From IMG/VR virus record IMGVR_UViG_3300032053_000032, positions 1 to 64,000 of that record: 64,000 nucleotides of DNA; one strand, 5' to 3'. The stretch comes from a virus. This document shows, in pieces, positions 1,896-45,243 of the stretch; the stretch's first letter is position 1; every line of letters begins with the position of its first letter. Under the pieces are notes generated by a model. It was given only the letters and a program-made list of their open reading frames with translations. It ran no database searches and was not told the DNA's origin. Both the position numbers and the translations under genes were made by a program.

Positions 1896-3980
1896 ATGGT
1901 CGACTTCACTACCTTCGCGCCAGGTGCCCGTATCATGCTCGTGCTGCCCTCCGGTCCAGCTCTAGCCGAGGCGCTACGTGCTTGCTGGGCAAACGGCCTG
2001 GTCGCGATCCCACGCGATCCCAAGAGCAAGCAGAACGTCCAGGTCGCGGAGCACGCGCAGGTCCACGCGCGCGTAGATGTTGACGGAGTTCATCCGAATC
2101 ACGTAGTTCATCCACTCTCGCCGCTCCACGACCGCCTCATCCTTTACACGTCCGGCTCTACAGGAGATCCGAAGGGCGTCGTGCTTACCGAGGCCGCGCT
2201 GAAGTCGAACGCGGTCCAGGTCGCGAACCGTCACGACTTCGCCTCGGGCGCGCACGCTACCTGCTTGTCACTGCATCACTGCAACGCGATCTGCGGGTCG
2301 CTCTACGGAACGATGCTCACGGACTCGCGCCTGATCATCTCGGGCAGCAGCGACATGACCGCGTACTTCTCGGCCATCGAGACGCACCGTGTATGCACCG
2401 CTACCATCGTGCCCGCTCTCCTTGAGAAGCTCCTCGCCTCGCCTCCGCGCTGGCCTTCCCGCCTCAAGTACCTGATCACGGCTGCGGCCCCGCTCACCCG
2501 CGACCTCGCGCGCCGCTTCCGTGATGTCTACGGTGAAGAGCGTCTCGTGCAGGGGTACGGGATGACCGAGGCGGTCAACTTCTCGACCACTATGCCGAAC
2601 CTCGCCGGGAAAGCTTGGTCAGCTGCCTACGTGAACCAGCACCCACCGGTCGGCGCCCCGCTGCCTGGAACCGAGCTGCGCGTGGAAGATGGCGAGGTTC
2701 AGGTGCGCGGCTTGAACTTGATGCGGGAATACTGGCGGAACCCGGAAGCTACAGCGGAAAAGTACACCTCGGACGGATGGTTCAAGACCGGAGACGTCGG
2801 GTTCGTAGGGGATGACGGACTTCTCCGCTTGAGCGGGCGCATCTCGGAGGGGATCAACTGGCGTGGCGCGATGACCTACCCGACAGACTTCGAGGAGTCC
2901 TGGGCGCTCAATTCACCCGGCTGCGCGATATCAGAGCGTGGTGTCTGTGTTCCTGTTGTTGACCCGGACGGACGCGAGCACCCCGCGGTAGTCGGCTGCT
3001 TGACAGCCGTCGCGCTCGGCTTGAACGACCCACCACCGATGGCGATGGACTCCGGTCCCGTGCAGGGGACGTTGACGTTCAAACCTCGCCGCCGCTCGAT
3101 GTCCACGGCCCTTACCTGTCGCTTCGATGATGACGTGCGCTACGAAGCGTTGCGCATTACTGCGTTCGAGGTGTACTCCATGATGGACTACCAGAGCCTA
3201 GACGCTCTCCAGATTTCGTCAGTGCAGGAACGCTGGATCGTAGATCGGGCTCTCGAATTTCGCCAGAAAATGACCGGCGCGCGGCTCGGTGACAAGCGGC
3301 TTGCCAGAATCGGCGGCGCCTGGAACGACGTCTGGAGCGAGGCCCTTCAAGCTCTCGGCACGCAGTGGGGTGCGCACGATGCGGAGCACCCTAAGCGGAT
3401 CATCACCGAGATCCCCAGCCTATGGCGCCGCCTCATGCACGAGTGGCCGATGGGCGTCTACGGTGACCTCGTGGCGGACATCATCGCTCGTCGAGGTCTA
3501 CTTCATGGCCGCGCGCTGGAGTTCGGGACTGGGGTAGGGAACACGTCCGGTCTTCTCAACCGCGCTAAGTTTGACGAGCTGTTCCTCACGGATTTGCAGC
3601 AGAGCACGAAGCGTGGTGTGCGGGCGTGGAACTTCGACTGCGGGGAACCTTATACCGTGGGGCTAGACCTCATATTCGGGACGAACGCCTTGCACTGTTC
3701 CAAGAGCCCCACGAAGGCCCTGCACACCATGTTCACGATGCTCAAGCCAGGAGGGCACCTTGTAATTGGGGAAGGTGAAGCTCACCCGTATCGTGACGAG
3801 CCCTGGGCACTGCACGCGTTCTTCGGCCTCTTCGACGGCTGGTGGGACGTCGGCGGGTTCCTAACGCGCCGCGGATGGGTCGAGCTGCTTGAGCGCACCG
3901 GCTTCGTCGATGTAGGATGGAGCGTGTTCCGTGCCGGCAGGTTTGATCTCGGAGGTGCTCTATGGGCGCGCAGGCCCTAG
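1896..3980 (+). CDS. Adenylate-forming (ANL) enzyme fused to a PKS-type methyltransferase
   Basis: This 694-residue protein has two catalytic parts. Residues ~80-370 form an ANL adenylation domain: P-loop YTSGSTGDPKG (84-94), GYGMTE (220-225), KTGDVG (297-302) and hinge-like SGRISEGINWRG (313-324). The part before the P-loop is short, and no PTGK catalytic lysine motif follows, so the C-terminal lid is missing or strongly diverged. Residues ~535-690 form a SAM methyltransferase: ALEFGTGVGN (540-549), TNALH (596-600), LKPGGHLVI (616-624) and GLFDGWW (644-650), as in polyketide-synthase C-methyltransferases. No carrier-protein DSL motif is convincing. The arrangement recalls NRPS adenylation domains interrupted after motif A8. 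The next gene, a MaoC-like hydratase, overlaps it by 19 bp. The substrate is unknown. The ATG has only a weak GCGGA upstream. Confidence 0.85.
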   Translation: MVDFTTFAPGARIMLVLPSGPALAEALRACWANGLVAIPRDPKSKQNVQVAEHAQVHARVDVDGVHPNHVVHPLSPLHDRLILYTSGSTGDPKGVVLTEAALKSNAVQVANRHDFASGAHATCLSLHHCNAICGSLYGTMLTDSRLIISGSSDMTAYFSAIETHRVCTATIVPALLEKLLASPPRWPSRLKYLITAAAPLTRDLARRFRDVYGEERLVQGYGMTEAVNFSTTMPNLAGKAWSAAYVNQHPPVGAPLPGTELRVEDGEVQVRGLNLMREYWRNPEATAEKYTSDGWFKTGDVGFVGDDGLLRLSGRISEGINWRGAMTYPTDFEESWALNSPGCAISERGVCVPVVDPDGREHPAVVGCLTAVALGLNDPPPMAMDSGPVQGTLTFKPRRRSMSTALTCRFDDDVRYEALRITAFEVYSMMDYQSLDALQISSVQERWIVDRALEFRQKMTGARLGDKRLARIGGAWNDVWSEALQALGTQWGAHDAEHPKRIITEIPSLWRRLMHEWPMGVYGDLVADIIARRGLLHGRALEFGTGVGNTSGLLNRAKFDELFLTDLQQSTKRGVRAWNFDCGEPYTVGLDLIFGTNALHCSKSPTKALHTMFTMLKPGGHLVIGEGEAHPYRDEPWALHAFFGLFDGWWDVGGFLTRRGWVELLERTGFVDVGWSVFRAGRFDLGGALWARRP

Positions 3981-4363
3981 TTGAGGGCGCTCTTCTTGGG
4001 ATGATCAGGATGGACGCCACGGAGGCGCGCATGTTTGCGCTCCTGTACGACCGCAACCCAGTGCATGTTGAAGTCGCCCGCAGGAACGCTATCTTGCCGG
4101 AAGACACGGTGAGCGGTCTGTACGTCGTCGCGAAGGCGCTAGATCTGCTTCAAGTTGCCGCCCCCGATCACACCGCGCGCGTGCTCTGCGCCAGCAAGAT
4201 GTCCGTCCGCTGGCTCGCTCCTGTGATCGGAGATCAGTGGGTTTCGCTCCGTATCGAGACGGTCATCATGGAACGGACGTCCAGAATCTTCCTGCGGCTG
4301 CTGCTCCGCGTTGGTGATGTCCCGGTAGCCGAGATCGACCTTCACCAGATCCTGGCCGTGTAG
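3962..4363 (+). CDS. MaoC-like hotdog-fold hydratase/dehydratase
   Basis: This 133-residue protein carries YDRNPVHVEVA, the hydratase-2 motif (canonical GDxNPxH), with the Asp-x4-His dyad at D30 and H35, the spacing found in PhaJ-type (R)-enoyl-CoA hydratases. The later VRWLAPVIGDQWV matches the second conserved strand (FxxPVxxGD) of MaoC proteins. Its length fits a single hotdog domain that would act as a dimer on an enoyl thioester. The start lies within the end of the adenylation-methyltransferase gene, implying coupled translation and a shared pathway. The GD of the motif is replaced by YD, so activity is inferred. Confidence 0.75.
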   Translation: MGAQALVEGALLGMIRMDATEARMFALLYDRNPVHVEVARRNAILPEDTVSGLYVVAKALDLLQVAAPDHTARVLCASKMSVRWLAPVIGDQWVSLRIETVIMERTSRIFLRLLLRVGDVPVAEIDLHQILAV

Positions 4364-5316
4364 TGGCCCGCCGCGACTACGAAGCCGCCATCGAGGAGCA
4401 CCGGCAGAAGCTTCACCGGATCCTCGACCGTCGTGGCGTAGTACAGATGAAACGGCTGTACCAGGACGCCCACGCCGAGCTAGAGCGGAAGCTCACCGCC
4501 GTAGCTGGTCGCAAGGCGACCATGACCTCGTTTCAGCAGAAGCTGCTACTCCTTCAGGTGAAGCACGGGCAGCAGGACATCTCGAAGCGCATGACCAAGG
4601 GCCTTTCTGCCGCGAGCGCCGATGCTCAGGTCGAGTCGCTCCACTCCCTTACGAAGACCGTCTCCCGCGCGGCCCCGCAGTTCCGTGGGGCGCAGGTTTC
4701 GCTACCTATCGAGGAGGCTGCGAGGTTCCGCGGCATCATCGACAAGCGCCGGACGTCGTTGCTTCAGGCGCACGCCACGTCCATGTCGACACATAGTGCC
4801 CGCGTCGTGAAGAAGATGGAGACGGAGCTGTCCAACTCACTCATGTCCGGTGAGTCGAATGACGAGGCAATCCAGCGCGTAGTTGGAGTAGCCGACGTCG
4901 AGTGGTGGCAGGCCGAGAGAATTGTCAAAACCGAGCTTGCGTGGGCCTACAATTCGACGCAGGCCGACGGTATCGCCGCGAGCGCGGAAGCTGTTCCCGG
5001 ACTCATGATGCGCTGGACTGAGAACTGCGACGATACGTCAAGCGCGCCTCTCGATGACCGTGTCGGCGTAGACTCCATCGCGATGCACGGACAGGTTGCG
5101 AAGCCGAACGGCGGGATGTTCACCTGCCCACCTACTGCGCCCCTCCCCGACGCGAAGGGGCAGACACGCGTGTCGGACTCGCTCTCCGGTGAAAGCTGGG
5201 CGTTTCCCCCCAACCGTCCGAACGATCGTGCTGCGCTCTCCCCTTGGCACCCGGACTGGGGTGTTCCTGGCTGGGTATGGCGTGGAAGACGTGTTCCCGT
5301 CACCTCAGTTCGATGA
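4363..5316 (+). CDS. Mu gpF-like head morphogenesis (minor capsid) protein
   Basis: This 317-residue protein has a long helical N-terminal half, then IVKTELAWAYNSTQADG, the conserved helix of the Mu gpF/SPP1 gp7 family, and a C-terminal region rich in P, W and D ending in a short beta module. Such proteins bind portal or early proheads in a few copies. The GTG start overlaps the upstream TAG by one base. Its place just before scaffold and capsid genes fits this role. The intervening metabolic cassette is unusual for this position. Confidence 0.8.
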   Translation: MARRDYEAAIEEHRQKLHRILDRRGVVQMKRLYQDAHAELERKLTAVAGRKATMTSFQQKLLLLQVKHGQQDISKRMTKGLSAASADAQVESLHSLTKTVSRAAPQFRGAQVSLPIEEAARFRGIIDKRRTSLLQAHATSMSTHSARVVKKMETELSNSLMSGESNDEAIQRVVGVADVEWWQAERIVKTELAWAYNSTQADGIAASAEAVPGLMMRWTENCDDTSSAPLDDRVGVDSIAMHGQVAKPNGGMFTCPPTAPLPDAKGQTRVSDSLSGESWAFPPNRPNDRAALSPWHPDWGVPGWVWRGRRVPVTSVR

Positions 5317-5925: not shown

Positions 5926-6174
5926 ATGTCGATCAAGTTCCTCCCCTACACGGGACCAGAATCGGTGGTTCCGGATGACGCGCAGCTCGCGCCGTCAGCG
6001 GAACGCGTGTACGACGAGACGATCAACATCCCGGAAGCGACGATGCTCCGCGCGATGACTCGTCCGAACTGGGACAACCCGATCATGGCCCCCGCGTACA
6101 CGGAAGCCGAGCAGCTTCCAGCCCCGCAGGCGCTCGGGCAGAACGCATCCCCTTTCAAGCTCGGAGGCAAGTAG
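5926..6174 (+). CDS. Micro-gene 1 of the PFKL(G/N) array
   Basis: This 82-residue protein ends SPFKLGGK. It is the first of four consecutive small genes with PFKL(G/N) C-termini. The rest is Pro/Ala-rich and probably poorly ordered. The codons for LGGK contain GGAGG, which acts as the ribosome-binding site of the next gene. Its own start has no Shine-Dalgarno sequence and appears leaderless. The function is unknown; head location and size suggest a small capsid-associated peptide. Confidence 0.7.
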   Translation: MSIKFLPYTGPESVVPDDAQLAPSAERVYDETINIPEATMLRAMTRPNWDNPIMAPAYTEAEQLPAPQALGQNASPFKLGGK

Positions 6175-6175
6175 C

Positions 6176-6400
6176 ATGGCTGACGACCACACCGTGAAGC
6201 GCGGCCCGCGCGCGAAGGCGCTCTCCGGATCGCTGATCTCCCCCGAAGGCAACGACATGGGCGGGAAGTACGACCCGCAGGCTGGTCACCCCCCGATGGA
6301 CGGCCTGCCAACGTCGGAGTACAAGGGGCTCACACCCGGTATCAACGGCAGCGCCTCTGCTCCCGAGCACACCACGCCGTTCAAGCTTGGAGGAACCTGA
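6176..6400 (+). CDS. Micro-gene 2 of the PFKL(G/N) array
   Basis: This 74-residue basic, Gly/Pro-rich protein ends TPFKLGGT. It starts one base after the stop of micro-gene 1, using the GGAGG inside that gene's end. It contains NDMGGKYDPQAG, a weak echo of the NDMS...KYDAD stretch in genes 3 and 4. The function is unknown. Confidence 0.7.
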   Translation: MADDHTVKRGPRAKALSGSLISPEGNDMGGKYDPQAGHPPMDGLPTSEYKGLTPGINGSASAPEHTTPFKLGGT

Positions 6401-6564
6401 TGTACGACTGCAACGACATGAGCGACGTCGGCCAGGACAAGAAGTACCAGCAGCCGACGGACAAGTACGACGCCGATCAGGGCAAGTACAAGCAGCAGGA
6501 GATCGCCCTCAACGGCAAGGCTCCCGCCCCCGCGCACTCGACCCCGTTCAAGCTGAACGGCTGA
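6400..6564 (+). CDS. Micro-gene 3 of the PFKL(G/N) array
   Basis: This 54-residue protein runs from the ATG overlapping the upstream TGA (TGATG) and ends TPFKLNG. Its first 30 residues match the next gene closely (NDMSxVGQDKxYxQPTxKYDAD), so the two are a recent tandem duplication. It is short enough to be missed by default gene callers. The function is unknown. Confidence 0.7.
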   Translation: MYDCNDMSDVGQDKKYQQPTDKYDADQGKYKQQEIALNGKAPAPAHSTPFKLNG

Positions 6565-6582
6565 AAGGACAAGGACAAGACG

Positions 6583-6780
6583 ATGGCCGACAACACGAAC
6601 GACATGAGCAACGTGGGGCAGGACAAGCAGTACAAGCAGCCCACCGAGAAGTACGACGCCGATCACGGCAAGTACAACGACCCGATCGATGGTCAGCGCG
6701 GAACCGATGAGGGGAACATGTTCCCCCTCGACGCGCTCCCCATGGCTCCTGCGCCGAACCCCTTCAAGCTCGGCAAGTAG
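6583..6780 (+). CDS. Micro-gene 4 of the PFKL(G/N) array
   Basis: This 65-residue paralogue of micro-gene 3 ends NPFKLGK. Its stop is not followed by a GGAGG, so conservation of PFKL here is not explained by ribosome binding for the next gene. It is hydrophilic, with no signal peptide or membrane segment. The function is unknown. Confidence 0.7.
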   Translation: MADNTNDMSNVGQDKQYKQPTEKYDADHGKYNDPIDGQRGTDEGNMFPLDALPMAPAPNPFKLGK

Positions 6781-7801: not shown

Positions 7802-8614
7802 ATGCCGACCGATGAAGAGATCGCCGCCGCGAAGGCGGCAGAAGAGGCAGCCGCGAAAGCAGTTGCCGAGAAGCCCGTTGAGGGTACGCAGCCGACCCCG
7901 GATGGTGGGCTCAAGATCCTGAGCGCCGGTGCCTACAAGCGCATCAAGGACGACGCCGCCGCGAAGGGCGAGCGCCGCGCGCTGGAGAAGATGGCCCGCG
8001 AATCGGGTTTCGGCTCCGTTGAGGAGTTTCAGAAGGCCGCGAAGGGCTTCAAGGCTGGAACGACCACGCCGAAACCTGCCCCTGCTCCGCAGCAGAACGG
8101 GCAGCAGGCTCGCGATCCCGGCAGAGCACCCGCAGGGATGAGCAACCGCGAGAAGAACGCGTGGGACAAGGAGCGCGTCAAGATCCTCGCCGACTTCGAG
8201 GTGGTCAAGAAGCAGTCCGCCCTGAACGACAAGAAGTATCGCAAGGCGCGCAAAGACCTGGAGAACAAGGAGACGGAGATGGCGCTCCGCGAAGCTGCGG
8301 CAGCTGTCGGAATCCGCGACCTTGACTACGCCGTGCGCCTGCTCGAAAAGCACGTCGAGAATAAGGAAGAGAAGGATCTGGCCGGCTTCGATGAGGTCAA
8401 GTTCTTCGAGGGGCTGCGTACCCCGCATCCCTACCTGTTCGGCGAGCGCGTGACCCCGGCGCATACCGGAACCACCGCGCAGCCCCCGGTTCCGCCGAAG
8501 CCTGGCGACGCCGCCGCAGCTCATGCTCAGAACGGCAAGTTCGACGCGAGAAGCGCGACCGCAGAAGAAGTGCAGAAGCAGCTCGCCAAGCGCGGGATTC
8601 AGCCCGGCACCTAG
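7802..8614 (+). CDS. Scaffold-like protein
   Basis: This 270-residue protein is placed directly before the major capsid gene. The N-terminus is Ala/Glu/Lys helical, the middle is Pro/Gln-rich, a long charged coiled-coil-like helix follows (residues ~115-175), and the end is a basic helix (EEVQKQLAKRG). Low sequence complexity, high charge and position fit a head scaffolding protein that organises capsid subunits and is then lost. No catalytic protease motif was seen. Confidence 0.65.
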   Translation: MPTDEEIAAAKAAEEAAAKAVAEKPVEGTQPTPDGGLKILSAGAYKRIKDDAAAKGERRALEKMARESGFGSVEEFQKAAKGFKAGTTTPKPAPAPQQNGQQARDPGRAPAGMSNREKNAWDKERVKILADFEVVKKQSALNDKKYRKARKDLENKETEMALREAAAAVGIRDLDYAVRLLEKHVENKEEKDLAGFDEVKFFEGLRTPHPYLFGERVTPAHTGTTAQPPVPPKPGDAAAAHAQNGKFDARSATAEEVQKQLAKRGIQPGT

Positions 8615-8714: not shown

Positions 8715-10115
8715 GTGGCAGATTTCAGCACGATCCTTCAGTCCCCAGACATCCGCGCCATCGTTCAGGATGGCTTCCTGGAGCGCGCCTTCCACGACGG
8801 CCTCTTCCCCAAGATGCTGTTTCGTGGAGAGGCGACTCCGGTCCTCTGGCCCGCTCACGCCGGTGACAGCGCGATCTTCACGGGCGTCGCTCCCGTGAAG
8901 AAGAAGATGAAGCCGATCGTGCCTGGGCAGGACCCCGGCGCTTCCGACTACCAGAAGGAGCAGTGGACCGCTGTCCTGCAGACGTACGGCGACTCCATCC
9001 CGACGCACATGCCGTCGTCGCTCGTCGCCATCGCGTCGCTGTTCCTCCGCAACGCTCAGCAGCTCGGCCTCGGCGCCGCGCGCACGCTGAACTCGCACGT
9101 CCGCAACCGCCTCTACAACGCGGGGCAGTCCGGCTGGACCGTTGCCGACGGCGCGCAGGTCGCGGTGACGGTGCTCCGCGTGAAGCGCCTCAACGGCTTC
9201 ACCACGGCGCGCCAGACGGGTGCGAACGCCACCGTTCGCTACGATCTCGTTTCTGCGGCGAACCCGCTCGCAGTCCTCATCTTCAACACGGGCACGGGCC
9301 TGGAGCAGTCGGTCAACGTCATCGGCTTCACCGCCGACAACTCGGGCGATCAGACCGGCCCCGGCACGATCACCGTGGACGCGGCCGTCACCGTGTCGAA
9401 CCGCGACTACGTGATCTCCGTCGATCGCACGTTCCTGGTGCGCGTCGGCGGTGGCAACAAGGTCGACTCGATCACCTCGGCCTCGCTCCTCAAGCTCGCC
9501 GACCTCCGCTCGGGCGTGTCGCGCCTTCAGCAGGAGAACGTCCCGGAGCACCCGGATGGGTACTTCCACTGCCACCTCGACCCCACGTCGCAGGCGCAGG
9601 TCTTCAACGACGCTGAGTGGCAGCGCCTGCTCACGTCGATGCCCGATGGCTTCCAGTACAAGTCGCTGGCGATCGGCCAGCTCCTTGGCGCGGTCTACTT
9701 CCGCAACTCGGAGTGCCCGCAGATCGAGACGATCGACCCGAACGACGGCGTCACCTTCTCGCTCGACGACAACTTCGCGGGCGAGCTGACCGCGAACGGC
9801 CTCGCGTCCGGCGTCAAGGTGCACCGCCCGCTGTTCACCGCGCAGGGCGGGATCATGGAGTACTACCAGGACCTCGGCGCCCTCATCACCGATGCGGGCA
9901 TCAACGGCAAGGTCGGGCAGTTCCAGATCACGAACAACGGCATCGAGGTCATGAGCGACCGTGTTCAGCTCATCATCCGCGCGCCGCTCAACAAGTTCCA
10001 GGACACGGTCGACACGACCTACAAGTTCCAGGGCGACTGGCCGGTCCGCACGGACTCGACGACCGGCGACGCGGCTCGCTACAAGCGCCAGCTCGTCATC
10101 GAACATGGGGCATGA
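8715..10115 (+). CDS. Major capsid protein
   Basis: This 466-residue protein has a GTG start with GGAGG at 8704-8708 in the 12-mer AAGCTCGGAGGC, which also precedes the micro-gene 2 start. The region around PDGYFHCHLDPTSQ and the final beta-rich third recall the N4 gp56/HK97-fold capsid family; an inserted strand-rich domain occupies ~residues 160-240. Strong codon bias (GC3-rich), size, the scaffold neighbour upstream and a perfect terminator downstream fit the most expressed virion protein. A TTGCAC at 8646 may belong to its own promoter. Confidence 0.8.
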   Translation: MADFSTILQSPDIRAIVQDGFLERAFHDGLFPKMLFRGEATPVLWPAHAGDSAIFTGVAPVKKKMKPIVPGQDPGASDYQKEQWTAVLQTYGDSIPTHMPSSLVAIASLFLRNAQQLGLGAARTLNSHVRNRLYNAGQSGWTVADGAQVAVTVLRVKRLNGFTTARQTGANATVRYDLVSAANPLAVLIFNTGTGLEQSVNVIGFTADNSGDQTGPGTITVDAAVTVSNRDYVISVDRTFLVRVGGGNKVDSITSASLLKLADLRSGVSRLQQENVPEHPDGYFHCHLDPTSQAQVFNDAEWQRLLTSMPDGFQYKSLAIGQLLGAVYFRNSECPQIETIDPNDGVTFSLDDNFAGELTANGLASGVKVHRPLFTAQGGIMEYYQDLGALITDAGINGKVGQFQITNNGIEVMSDRVQLIIRAPLNKFQDTVDTTYKFQGDWPVRTDSTTGDAARYKRQLVIEHGA

Positions 10116-15373: not shown

Positions 15374-16285
15374 ATGTCTCAATCTGATCTTAACGCTATG
15401 CGGAAGGTGCGTATCGCACAACGCAAGCGTCGGGCTATAGCAGAGGCTGACGCTGAGCGTAAGAAACGTGCCGAGACGTCTGGTGCGAAATCGACAGAAG
15501 TTCCCAAAACGAAGGTGGCAGAATCTCCCAAAGTTGAAGAGCCATCAACTGGCTCTCAGCATCGTTCTACTGCCCCGCTCGATGAGCGGGATCGGCTCCC
15601 GGCTGGGGCCGACGAGCGAGATAAACGCCGACTTGGTGCAAAGCTAACATCCGAAAAGTCAGGATCTTCCTCTTCCTCAGGTTCGTCTGAAACGTTGTCC
15701 CAGAAGCTCGAGCGCGGTGCTCGTGAACTAAAAGGGCCAGTGATTGGAACGCCTGGAGGCACTCTTCACACCATGTTGGAAGGTGCTAAAGATCCCAGTG
15801 TCGACAAGCATCTCTACACCGCTGATAATGTTCGGAAAAACACACCAGGTGTGCGTGAATCACGAGATCTAGTAGAAATCTCACACTTCCACAAAGCGGT
15901 AGCGGATCAGCTTCGCCATCAGGCAAGTGCTGGACGTCTCAAGTACCCGGAGAAGGAACTAAAGAACGCTGAGGCGCACGAAAGGTTAGCCGGGGCGTAC
16001 GAGCAAGAGGCCAAGAAAGATCCTGCTCAGTACAGAGTGAGTCAGCACACGCATCTCGAGCGGCAGACTGCGATTCACAAAAAGGTTGCAGATGCCGATC
16101 AGGTGCACGCTGATAAATACAAGACCATGGCGGCCGAAGAAGCCTCACCGGAGCACAAAAAGCTGCTTCAAGACGTCGCTGCCCGGCACCAGAAAACCGC
16201 TAACCAGTCGAAGGCCATCGTGGAACATCACCAGCGGGTAGCTGACGAGTACAAGCGTGACGCCGGCGGGAAGTTCTCGTCTTGA
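15374..16285 (+). CDS. His-rich helical protein with RDxxGxFSS tail (paralogue B)
   Basis: This 303-residue, Ser-rich N-terminal, then strongly helical protein has repeated units of the form H..A..Y...A and HERLAGAYEQEA, ending RDAGGKFSS like the gene at 669-1358. Its A/T-rich synonymous codons contrast with the GC-rich sheath and tube on either side, so it looks like an inserted module between sheath and tube. The -35 box of the next promoter overlaps its stop. The function is unknown. Confidence 0.65.
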   Translation: MSQSDLNAMRKVRIAQRKRRAIAEADAERKKRAETSGAKSTEVPKTKVAESPKVEEPSTGSQHRSTAPLDERDRLPAGADERDKRRLGAKLTSEKSGSSSSSGSSETLSQKLERGARELKGPVIGTPGGTLHTMLEGAKDPSVDKHLYTADNVRKNTPGVRESRDLVEISHFHKAVADQLRHQASAGRLKYPEKELKNAEAHERLAGAYEQEAKKDPAQYRVSQHTHLERQTAIHKKVADADQVHADKYKTMAAEEASPEHKKLLQDVAARHQKTANQSKAIVEHHQRVADEYKRDAGGKFSS

Positions 16286-41915: not shown

Positions 41916-42071
41916 CTACGTGTCGTTGGGCAACTCAAGTGCGTGAGCAAGTTTGTGCAGAGCGTGGAGCGCGCGCTCCACGAAGGATGCGTTCCTTCGC
42001 TTTTCATGCGCCTTTTGCCAGTCCGAGGTACGCTTCTTGCGCGCTTTGGCGCGCTTCGACCACTTGCTCAT
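41916..42071 (-). CDS. Small basic protein
   Basis: This 51-residue protein starts at the ATG overlapping the VWA-gene stop (ATGA). The N-terminal half is extremely basic (SKWSKRAKARKKRTSDW), the rest is an amphipathic helix. It probably binds nucleic acid. No family recognised. Confidence 0.6.
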   Translation of the reverse strand: MSKWSKRAKARKKRTSDWQKAHEKRRNASFVERALHALHKLAHALELPNDT

Positions 42072-43444
42072 CCGTCGTTCGTCTCGTCGATGGAGATAAA
42101 CTTTCCCCACTCGCACGGGTGCTGCTGATACGGGCCGACCAAGAGCCAGATGACGGAGGCCCACGGCGGTGGCTCGGCGGGTGCTGGACCCTGCCCATCG
42201 GTCACGATGATGATCACGTCTGGCCGCGGATTCTCGGTATCATCGGGCGGCAACCCAGCCAGGTACTCGAAGACGGGGCAGAAGTCCGTCCCGCCACCAC
42301 CCTTGAGCTGCGCGGCAGCTTCCTGCCAGGAAGCCGCGCGTACCGCGGTGTGAACCGTGGCGTCGCAGGTCAGGAATGCCACGGACGCGTTCAGCACGGC
42401 GAGCACCCCCGACGCTTCCGCCATCGCGCGGTTCAGCTCGGCAACGCCCATCGACCCAGACGTGTCGACCACGAACGCAACGTTCGGCACGAACTCGTAG
42501 AAGCCGGCGAGGCGAGGCTTCCCTGGTCCGAAACCGAGCCCTGCCTGGCGCACCGACGTGCGCCGGTAGGTGTAGTCCACCACCCCTGCACGCTGCACGA
42601 GCCCGCGGATCGAGTGAGCCAGCTCCTGCTCCCAGGAGATCTTGGGTGGCTTCAACTCAGCGTCCGCCCACCGCTGAAGTCCTGCCGGAACGTCTCCGCG
42701 ACCCTTGCTGGCTTCCTCGCGGATCGCTTCGGCTGTCTCGCGGCGGATCCGGCGGATCTCGGGTTCTGACTTCCCTACCTGACGGCCAGTCGAGTCCTTG
42801 GCGTCCTCATCCGGCTCGCCAGGCACCGCCTGCCCACCGCCGGACCCGCACCACCCGGTTCCCGCGCCGGGCTTGGCGCCCATCTCAGCGGCCTTCTCAC
42901 CAGCCTTCTGAGCTTCCCCCTTTTCCCGCCCAGAGCCATTCCCAGACTGGTCTGGAGTTGACCCCCTGCCGAGCGCGGCCAGGCGGTTGTAGTAGTCCTC
43001 CGCGATGGATCCGGGCTTGAAGCCGAGCGTCTGAGGGAGCACCGGCGGGCTGGCCTTGGGCGCGCGGAACTCGCGGTCCTTGGCGTCTGGACCGTAATCG
43101 CCGGGCTGCTCGGGCTTGATGAGCACCAGGTCGTCGTTGATCTCCATGTCGTGCGCGATGTTCCAGAGGCGGTGTTCCCCGGCGTGCTTCTCGCAGCGGG
43201 TGAACGACTCGCGGAGCGGATGCATGACCTCGTGGCAGAGAACCCAGGCGATCTCGCCCACGGTCCACCTCTCGATGGCCACCGGATCGTAGAGCGCGAC
43301 CATTCGCGGCGTGATCCCGATGGTGCCCAGTTCCGGCTGCTCCCGGAACACCATCGAGTTGAGCGCGCGCCGGAAGTAGGGCAGCTTCTGCTTGGCGATG
43401 TGCCGGCCGGCCATCAGCTTCGCACGCGGGGTGAGGGTGGGCAT
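42068..43444 (-). CDS. Metallopeptidase-like and VWA-domain protein (MoxR partner)
   Basis: This 458-residue protein has AAGGAG in the end of the upstream gene. Residues ~1-130 form a zincin-like domain with HEVMH (71-75) and NIAHDMEIND nearby; ~150-250 is a charged linker; ~315-455 is a von Willebrand A domain with the MIDAS start VDTSGSMG. This is the DUF2201 architecture. The MoxR ATPase is two genes upstream, and MoxR/VWA pairs act as chaperones that insert or remodel cofactors or complexes. The phage target is unknown. Confidence 0.8.
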   Translation of the reverse strand: MPTLTPRAKLMAGRHIAKQKLPYFRRALNSMVFREQPELGTIGITPRMVALYDPVAIERWTVGEIAWVLCHEVMHPLRESFTRCEKHAGEHRLWNIAHDMEINDDLVLIKPEQPGDYGPDAKDREFRAPKASPPVLPQTLGFKPGSIAEDYYNRLAALGRGSTPDQSGNGSGREKGEAQKAGEKAAEMGAKPGAGTGWCGSGGGQAVPGEPDEDAKDSTGRQVGKSEPEIRRIRRETAEAIREEASKGRGDVPAGLQRWADAELKPPKISWEQELAHSIRGLVQRAGVVDYTYRRTSVRQAGLGFGPGKPRLAGFYEFVPNVAFVVDTSGSMGVAELNRAMAEASGVLAVLNASVAFLTCDATVHTAVRAASWQEAAAQLKGGGGTDFCPVFEYLAGLPPDDTENPRPDVIIIVTDGQGPAPAEPPPWASVIWLLVGPYQQHPCEWGKFISIDETNDG

Positions 43445-43655: not shown

Positions 43656-44876
43656 TTAGCGACGTGACCGAGGCTGGAGGCCGGTCGCCTTGACGAACGG
43701 CTGCATCTTGGCGAGCACCGGCCGGGCTTCCGGGATTTGCGACAGCTCGCTATCGATGAGCGTTCCCATCGGGCGGATGCAGAGGTCAGCCATCTCGCCG
43801 ACCACCTCCCCGAGGATGCCCCAGAGGACCGTCGCGCGCGCCTTCCGCTTGTCGAGCTTCCGGTCTTCGAGGATGGTGGCGCACGCGTTGAGCGTGACCT
43901 CGGTGCGGTCGATGCGGTCCGGGTCGTGCGACCACTTCGTCACGCGGTCCATGACGTCGAGCGGGTTCGGCAGGTCGACCTTTTCGCGGTACTCGAACAG
44001 CTCCGAAGCTGCGCCGGCCCCCACAAACGACGCAACGAACTCCTCCGCATCGCCGACTTCGAGCCCGTTCACCTCACCGGAGGACAGCGCGCGGGCTGCA
44101 TTCTCCCAGGAGCGCGGAGAGCACCACGCGCGGCCGGCCTTCCCGTCTCCGAGCTTGGGCACCTTCAGGAGCGCGTCGGGCACGGCCTTGATGTAGCCGG
44201 CGACCACCGCGCGCGCCTTCGCCCACGGGCTGCCCCAGTTCTCCATCACCCGAGCTTCTTCAGAAGCTGCCGATCCAAGCACGACTTCGGTGTGACGGTC
44301 GGCACCGGACCCGAGGAGCCAGGACGTCCACTCGCCGACGTCCGGCCGGTTGTCCTGAAGCCAGGGCAGGTGCCCCATGCGGTTCGCGACCGGGGCAGGC
44401 AGCTCGCTTCCACCCGCGGACAGCTCCGGCGGGTTGGCTGCTCCGAAGATGCGGACGCGCCGCCCGAGGAAGTGCGCGCCGATCCGCTTCTCGTGGATGA
44501 GCCCCATCAGCGCGGGACGAAGCGCAGCGGGCGCCGTGTTCGTCTCGTCCACGAAGACGATGCCCACCGGAACTCCCTGGGCATCAAGCAGGTTGTCGGT
44601 CCACTCCGGGGGTGGGTAGGTGAGGATCATGCGGTCCACGATCTTGCCGTCCGGGTACTTGAACGGGCGGATCTCGGGCACCGGCGTCACGCCGAATGCG
44701 CCCTCCTGGCGCTCACCTGGCGACAGCACCTCGACGTACAGCCCAGTCTCCCGGCCGAGCTGGAGGATCGCTTCGGTCTTCCCGACACCGGGAACGTCCC
44801 AGAGCAGCATGGGAAGGCCCCAGCCGCGGCTGGTGGGCGTGAAGAGTGCGGCGCGGAGAATATCGAGGCGGCTCAT
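43656..44876 (-). CDS. MoxR-type AAA+ ATPase
   Basis: The start at 44876 was chosen for CAGGAG upstream; in-frame codons beyond it read through a structured non-coding stretch. This 406-residue protein has Walker A DVPGVGKT (27-34), Walker B IVFVDE (106-111), and FGAANPP (sensor 1). MoxR ATPases work with VWA proteins as chaperones or metal-insertion machines; the partner is at 42068-43444. Late in the sequence is a helical lid. Confidence 0.85.
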   Translation of the reverse strand: MSRLDILRAALFTPTSRGWGLPMLLWDVPGVGKTEAILQLGRETGLYVEVLSPGERQEGAFGVTPVPEIRPFKYPDGKIVDRMILTYPPPEWTDNLLDAQGVPVGIVFVDETNTAPAALRPALMGLIHEKRIGAHFLGRRVRIFGAANPPELSAGGSELPAPVANRMGHLPWLQDNRPDVGEWTSWLLGSGADRHTEVVLGSAASEEARVMENWGSPWAKARAVVAGYIKAVPDALLKVPKLGDGKAGRAWCSPRSWENAARALSSGEVNGLEVGDAEEFVASFVGAGAASELFEYREKVDLPNPLDVMDRVTKWSHDPDRIDRTEVTLNACATILEDRKLDKRKARATVLWGILGEVVGEMADLCIRPMGTLIDSELSQIPEARPVLAKMQPFVKATGLQPRSRR

Positions 44877-44914
44877 GTAATTGGCTCCTGGTAGAGGTCT
44901 TGGGCAAAGCGTCC

Positions 44915-45028
44915 CGCTCGTGCCCGGCGCAACGTGGTCCTGGTGTTCTGGAAGGCTTTTGTATCGCCTTGCCGAACCTGGGCCTCCGTTACGGGCCGAG
45001 GTGGGAGCCGTTGCGCCGGGCACGAGCG
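44915..45028 (-). ncRNA. Possible structured RNA closed by a perfect 20-bp inverted repeat
   Basis: 44915-44934 and 45009-45028 are exact reverse complements (20 bp), with 74 nt between. The interior holds AAGGC/GCCTT and CCTC/GAGG hairpins. It lies between a zinc protein and the MoxR gene on the minus strand, where it might be a processed RNA, an attenuator-like leader or a recombination site. It has no T-run. The strand is assigned by the flanking genes. Confidence 0.5.
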
Positions 45029-45048
45029 AGGCGTTCCGCGCCAGTCTG

Positions 45049-45243
45049 TTACTCCTCGTCGATGCAGGCGAGGCAGGTCGCTCGGTGAGCGCGGACGGTG
45101 TCCGCGACGCACGCGGGGCACATCGGCGCTTCGCACCGGGGGCAGTACATGCCGCCGGAGTCATCTCCGCAGCCCGTGCAGATCTCCGGGTTGGTGTTTT
45201 CGTCAGTGCGGTCGTACTCCATCGCGTTCGTCTGATTGCTCAT
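45049..45243 (-). CDS. Small zinc-binding protein (leaderless transcript)
   Basis: This 64-residue protein has CTGC, CPRC, CPAC and CLAC pairs spaced as a B-box or RING-like double zinc site. The ATG is 7 nt after a -10 box. It probably mediates protein or nucleic-acid contacts. It is acidic at the N-terminus. Confidence 0.7.
   Translation of the reverse strand: MSNQTNAMEYDRTDENTNPEICTGCGDDSGGMYCPRCEAPMCPACVADTVRAHRATCLACIDEE

Follow-up and report, generated by a model that had tools for sequence, protein, structure and literature searches.

The window, by which we mean the whole 64,000-nucleotide stretch that we analysed, covers bases 1-64000 of a virus record that is 85,027 bases long. A match to tail sheath (phrog_23) indicates that this uncultivated phage has a contractile tail. 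The head genes follow the usual order provided that the record is circularly permuted, with the terminase and portal genes near the far end. After these come genes for a MuF-like protein, an acidic protein, an array of four small proteins, two proteins of about 130 amino acids (the b130 and b140 families), a scaffolding protein, and the major capsid protein (Table 1). The array, at 5926-6780, lies immediately upstream of the b130, b140, scaffold, and capsid genes, and its four consecutive genes encode proteins that end in PFKLG or PFKLN. The open reading frames and the C-termini are as an earlier, preliminary description of this DNA gave them. When we scanned all 819 open reading frames of at least 35 amino acids in the 85-kb record for P[FWY]x[LIVM] near the C-terminus, the four array genes were the only plausible genes that we found, besides a few unrelated matches.

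Table 1. The array and its neighbours, in coordinates of the window.
Feature	Position	Strand	Evidence or remarks
MuF-like protein	4363-5316		phrog_115, E 2e-6
Acidic protein, 175 aa	5352..5879	+	Conserved neighbour upstream of array; C-terminus Y..P..VVA.VY..MGG, untagged
Array gene A, 82 aa, C-terminus ASPFKLGGK	5926..6174	+	ORF, coding score, gene call, positional equivalents in relatives
C-terminal tag of gene A, PFKLGGK	6151..6171	+	
Array gene B, 74 aa, C-terminus TPFKLGGT	6176..6400	+	ORF, coding score, gene call, alignment A3 of 30 relatives
C-terminal tag of gene B, PFKLGGT	6377..6397	+	
Array gene C, 54 aa, C-terminus TPFKLNG, body VGQDK...YDA..GKY	6400..6564	+	ORF, coding score, gene call, alignment A7
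C-terminal tag of gene C, PFKLNG	6544..6561	+	
Array gene D, 65 aa, C-terminus NPFKLGK, paralog of gene C	6583..6780	+	ORF, coding score, gene call, alignment A2
C-terminal tag of gene D, PFKLGK	6760..6777	+	
b130 family protein, 129 aa	6790..7179	+	Conserved neighbour downstream of array; no PHROG family
b140 family protein, 131 aa	7232..7627	+	Conserved neighbour downstream of array
Scaffolding protein	7802..8614	+	phrog_194, E 1e-5; Pfam Phage_scaffold, E 7.6e-8, slightly short of the curated cut-off
Major capsid protein, HK97 fold (predicted)	8715..10115	+	phrog_1357, E 3.9e-12; AF2 model pLDDT 82, Foldseek matches to phage capsids, E about 1e-9

The bodies of the array proteins fall into recognizable classes. 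The class of gene A often has a GDLG...FEPR body among the relatives, and the class of gene B has a conserved R.PR..A motif near its N-terminus (alignment A3). As already noticed in the preliminary description, the proteins of genes C and D are alike over about 30 N-terminal residues, and a comparison of the two family profiles by hhalign confirms that they are paralogs (A7 vs. A2, 98.5%, E 2.5e-15) with the common body GQ.K...YDA.HGKY. The profiles for genes B and D align weakly across G.Y...PF (E 2.5e-5). Relatives of gene D end in ...MPKAPDPSPFxLGPM..GGR (alignment A2). Across the clade, the tagged array proteins have 49-125 amino acids, with a median of about 70. Proline and glycine make up 22% of the array proteins (vs. 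14%), their hydropathy is 0.415 (vs. 0.464 for the other proteins of these loci), and the last 12 residues of the tagged proteins have an average charge of +1.4. Judging by this composition, the array proteins are probably largely disordered. Searches against PHROG and Pfam profiles gave no family above noise for the array proteins of the window or for 30 relatives of gene B and 30 of gene D, with the sole exception of one isolated match to phrog_35862 (E 0.0019). No array protein matched an enzyme family.

The capsid protein is confidently predicted to be HK97-like. The AF2 model that we used was built from 50 sequences (pLDDT 82), and we discarded a model from 6 sequences (pLDDT 37). The best Foldseek match of the 50-sequence model has E 1.3e-9, and the top matches listed are capsids of phages or archaeal viruses. 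The b130 protein had no credible match in PDB by sequence. The acidic protein upstream of the array has two internal sites near its N-terminus, KMPFGKN and KNPFAKK, that are reminiscent of the tag, and there are PFGK or PFAK sites near the N-terminus of the acidic proteins of three relatives as well (L002 3470-3895, L025 3015-3560, and L081 4973-5488). Such PF[GA]K sites are present in a few of 25 gene calls of the acidic type and are not conserved across the clade.

Some other genes in the window and in one relative are unusual. Directly upstream of the MuF-like gene, within the head gene cluster, the gene at 1896-3980 encodes a protein of 694 aa that combines an AMP-binding (acyl-adenylating) domain (Pfam E 7.8e-42) with a methyltransferase domain (E 4.8e-9), and the next gene (4001-4363) encodes a protein with a weak MaoC-like dehydratase domain; a metabolic cassette of this kind is unusual for a phage. 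The proteins at 669-1358 and 15374-16285 have another C-terminal ending in common (REYARDDKGEFSS and DEYKRDAGGKFSS), which is possibly a second shared tag. On the minus strand, a putative DUF2201 metallopeptidase with a VWA-like domain (42068-43444; Pfam E 3e-21) adjoins a likely AAA ATPase (43656-45164; weak Pfam matches), and these neighbours are similar to MoxR/VWA pairs. In one of the relatives (L003), an open reading frame at 1334-1786, directly after the b130 gene, has features of an HNH endonuclease as judged by eye. Its last 20 or so residues repeat the C-terminus of the preceding b130 gene (LTRVPGTPTTVDVFLGQNS); it looks as though the end of the host gene had been duplicated by a mobile endonuclease.

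We found relatives of this phage by capsid searches of viral contigs, which returned 5 and then 80 loci, along with two bacterial MAG contigs (labelled Armatimonadetes and uncultured proteobacterium). The sequence collections consist of uncultivated contigs, many of them incomplete, and genes were called mechanically with a simple gene caller. Merging near-identical loci on the basis of shared 5-mers left about 50 non-redundant relatives (51 loci in our counts), whose capsid proteins are 38-67% identical. The preliminary description suggested searching viral metagenomes for C-terminal tags of the PFKL type beside capsid genes, and these about 50 relatives do have them: at the position of the array there are 2-4 small genes whose products end in P[FWY]x[LIVM] or P[FWY]xxL. 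The strict motif P[FWY]x[LIVM] is present in the last 20 residues of 82 of 202 short genes of the region vs. 8 of 338 other genes (51 loci), while a shuffling control gave 5 on average and 10 at most where 82 were observed. So the tag did not arise by chance. The second form of the tag, P[FW]xxL[KR], is exemplified by PFANLKK, PWKNLKGG, and PFGSLKK. The shared tag is real and extends well beyond the window.

The tag is also well conserved. Three classes, all downstream of gene A, could be aligned, and P[FWY] is kept in 25 of 30 members of class B, 20 of 25 of class C, and 29 of 30 of class D (with F itself in 29/30). In the B and D families, whose members are only 13-52% identical to the proteins of the window, few columns are as conserved as the P and F of the tag. 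The residues after PF vary strongly, and some proteins end exactly in KPFK or KKPF; in class D, the tag is often about 12 residues ahead of the stop. Of 37 loci whose upstream region was complete, 36 had at least one matching array gene; the remaining one, L057, carries the variants LPFAARK and FPFK. Even the most distant locus (L086, with 38% capsid identity) has two such genes, which end in VPFKITKP and KPFKL. In a subclade of 25 rows with 42-48% capsid identity, the C-termini shift to LPF, MPF, SPV, or FPV, and these variant endings are sometimes alike in two genes of one phage (RPMPFARK and RPMPFTPK in L066; RRSPVKRK and KPSPVQHG in L078). A scan of the collection with the tag region of class D, for which a tighter set of class D sequences was the query, returned mostly loci that were already known from the capsid search; one returned locus (L095) was left out of the context check. 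Among cultured phages, no relative of gene D was found by tblastn. The only cultured phages with related capsid proteins are the Streptomyces phage Kromp (29%) and the Komagataeibacter phage phiKX1, with phiKX2 (24%). In Kromp and phiKX1, the capsid proteins are homologous and no array of small genes precedes the capsid gene; tags are thus not a requirement of the capsid fold as such.

Could the tag be a by-product of the ribosome-binding sites of tightly packed genes? As the preliminary description pointed out, the codons for LGG in genes A and B contain GGAGG, and it suggested that part of the conservation may be ribosomal. This holds for the residues after the core, where 45 of 118 tags have SD-like words in their codons, and fails for PFxL itself, where just 6 of 118 do. 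Nor do the tags vary freely when no downstream ribosome site is needed: P[FWY] is kept in 65 of the 75 genes whose 3' codons lack the SD of the next gene, and the tags of class D often lie some 12 residues ahead of the stop. We therefore reject a ribosomal origin for PFxL, and the tag as a whole being such a by-product is hardly credible, while a ribosomal origin of the trailing G, K, or R is plausible. We also rejected homogenisation at the DNA level by gene conversion: same-residue positions within a genome share codons in 210 cases vs. 197.7 expected from codon usage (z 1.4). All four codons are used for the proline of the tag (CCG 63, CCC 34, CCT 14, and CCA 7). Given these varied codons and a rate of codon sharing that is as expected, selection acts on the peptide.

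We asked if a given phage has similar tags on its different genes. These tags are more alike than after permuting phages (z 6.0), a value that is inflated by the relatedness of the phages. As a phylogenetic control, we compared disjoint sister pairs on the capsid tree, which has many weak branches; 12 of 18 pairs were positive (Wilcoxon p 0.058, sign p 0.12), and p was 0.07 in an earlier version, whose gene classes were noisier. With z 6 falling to p 0.058 under this control, we do not accept co-variation as proof of a single partner. It is at most suggestive of one.

What the data directly show is the tag itself, conserved across the clade and confined to the array, with a core that is independent of ribosome sites and codons that lack the signature of gene conversion. 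From this we infer that the tag has a binding partner, the same one for all array proteins, and that this partner is a head protein. Our best explanation, at about even odds (roughly 0.5), is that the C-terminal tag serves as a motif by which the array proteins dock to a single common partner in the head, most likely the capsid protein or the scaffold. Each array protein would be a short, probably largely disordered polypeptide, and its last 5-15 residues would form a short linear motif with the consensus [S/T/D]-P-F-x-[L/I/V]-[G/K] or P-[F/W]-x-x-L-[K/R]. One partner in the assembling head, likeliest the HK97-fold capsid protein or the scaffold, would recognise the motif, and two to four different small proteins would thereby be recruited into or onto the prohead. 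Docking to a capsid or prohead protein was proposed in the preliminary description, and it fits best because the tag is C-terminal, conserved in the clade, restricted to genes beside the scaffold and capsid genes, and common to different small proteins; which head protein is the partner is our surmise.

The main rival to docking as cargo is a bridging or cement role for the array proteins, because the motifs in their bodies are conserved too. In that case, the N-terminal body motif (R.PR..A or GQ.K...YD..HGKY) and the C-terminal tag would bind two different virion proteins, and the array proteins would staple the head together instead of being its cargo. Both ends are indeed conserved: in classes C and D, HGKY has a near-invariant G and Y, and in class B, R.PR..A has an invariant R and A. 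The linkers are rich in proline and glycine, and the bodies are conserved between phages, not highly diverse like the T4 internal proteins. We consider this reading unlikely on the whole, if clearly less so than the others. We give little weight to common descent of tandem duplicates alone, without a specific shared partner. Genes C and D are clear paralogs, and B aligns weakly with D, but the tag outlasts most of the bodies. Since PF remains among the most-conserved columns despite low pairwise identity and since the proline codons vary, purifying selection on the peptide is needed. We strongly doubt that the tag is a site for a prohead protease or a degradation signal for temporary assembly factors; a cleavage signal, the other suggestion of the preliminary description, found no support. 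In other phages, head maturation often involves proteolysis of head proteins (PMC5694885), but we recognised no prohead protease among the head-region genes that we tested, a cut at the very end of the protein would remove just a few residues, and what follows PF varies strongly, down to exact ends such as KPFK and KKPF.

Docking by a C-terminal tag would have parallels in known systems. In encapsulins, a shell of the HK97 fold takes up C-terminal cargo peptides, which dock in its lumen (PMC7355545). Here too, a short C-terminal hydrophobic or basic peptide is found on different proteins that are encoded beside the gene for an HK97-fold shell. On the other hand, encapsulin cargo proteins are enzymes (e.g., FLP or DyP), whereas these tags are on tiny, probably disordered proteins; the motif here is a different one, PFxL, whose docking to the shell is a proposal; and with terminase, portal, scaffold, and tail sheath, the locus belongs to a tailed phage. 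In T4, a terminal sequence that is common to the internal proteins IPI-IPIII sends them into the prohead (PMC3012670, PMC5694885), and similarly, a short terminal sequence common to several small proteins of the head cluster would direct them into the prohead. But the T4 sequence is N-terminal, has 10-20 residues, and is removed by a protease, while the tag is C-terminal in every class, and the T4 internal proteins are a diverse set of defence proteins, while the bodies of the array proteins are conserved between phages. So the array tag is neither an encapsulin cargo-loading peptide nor a T4 capsid-targeting sequence, even though it would work like one in our best explanation. A literature search of limited scope, which is not evidence of absence, found no C-terminal tag system in phages.

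If the tag does dock to the capsid or the scaffold, phage shells would have in it a C-terminal cargo tag ready for use, in parallel to encapsulin loading and to N-terminal targeting in T4, and the way in which a clade of phages builds several tiny proteins into one head would be explained. A broader idea, which is possible but on the doubtful side, is that a C-terminal peptide code lets tailed phages load a set of different small proteins inside the HK97-fold prohead or on its surface, with the tag and a pocket in the shell co-evolving, as the phage counterpart of encapsulin loading. Genes of this size are often dropped in uncultivated phages. If docking is true, then P[FWY]x[LIVM] endings would be a handle, readable from the genome, on the unannotated head proteins of these phages.
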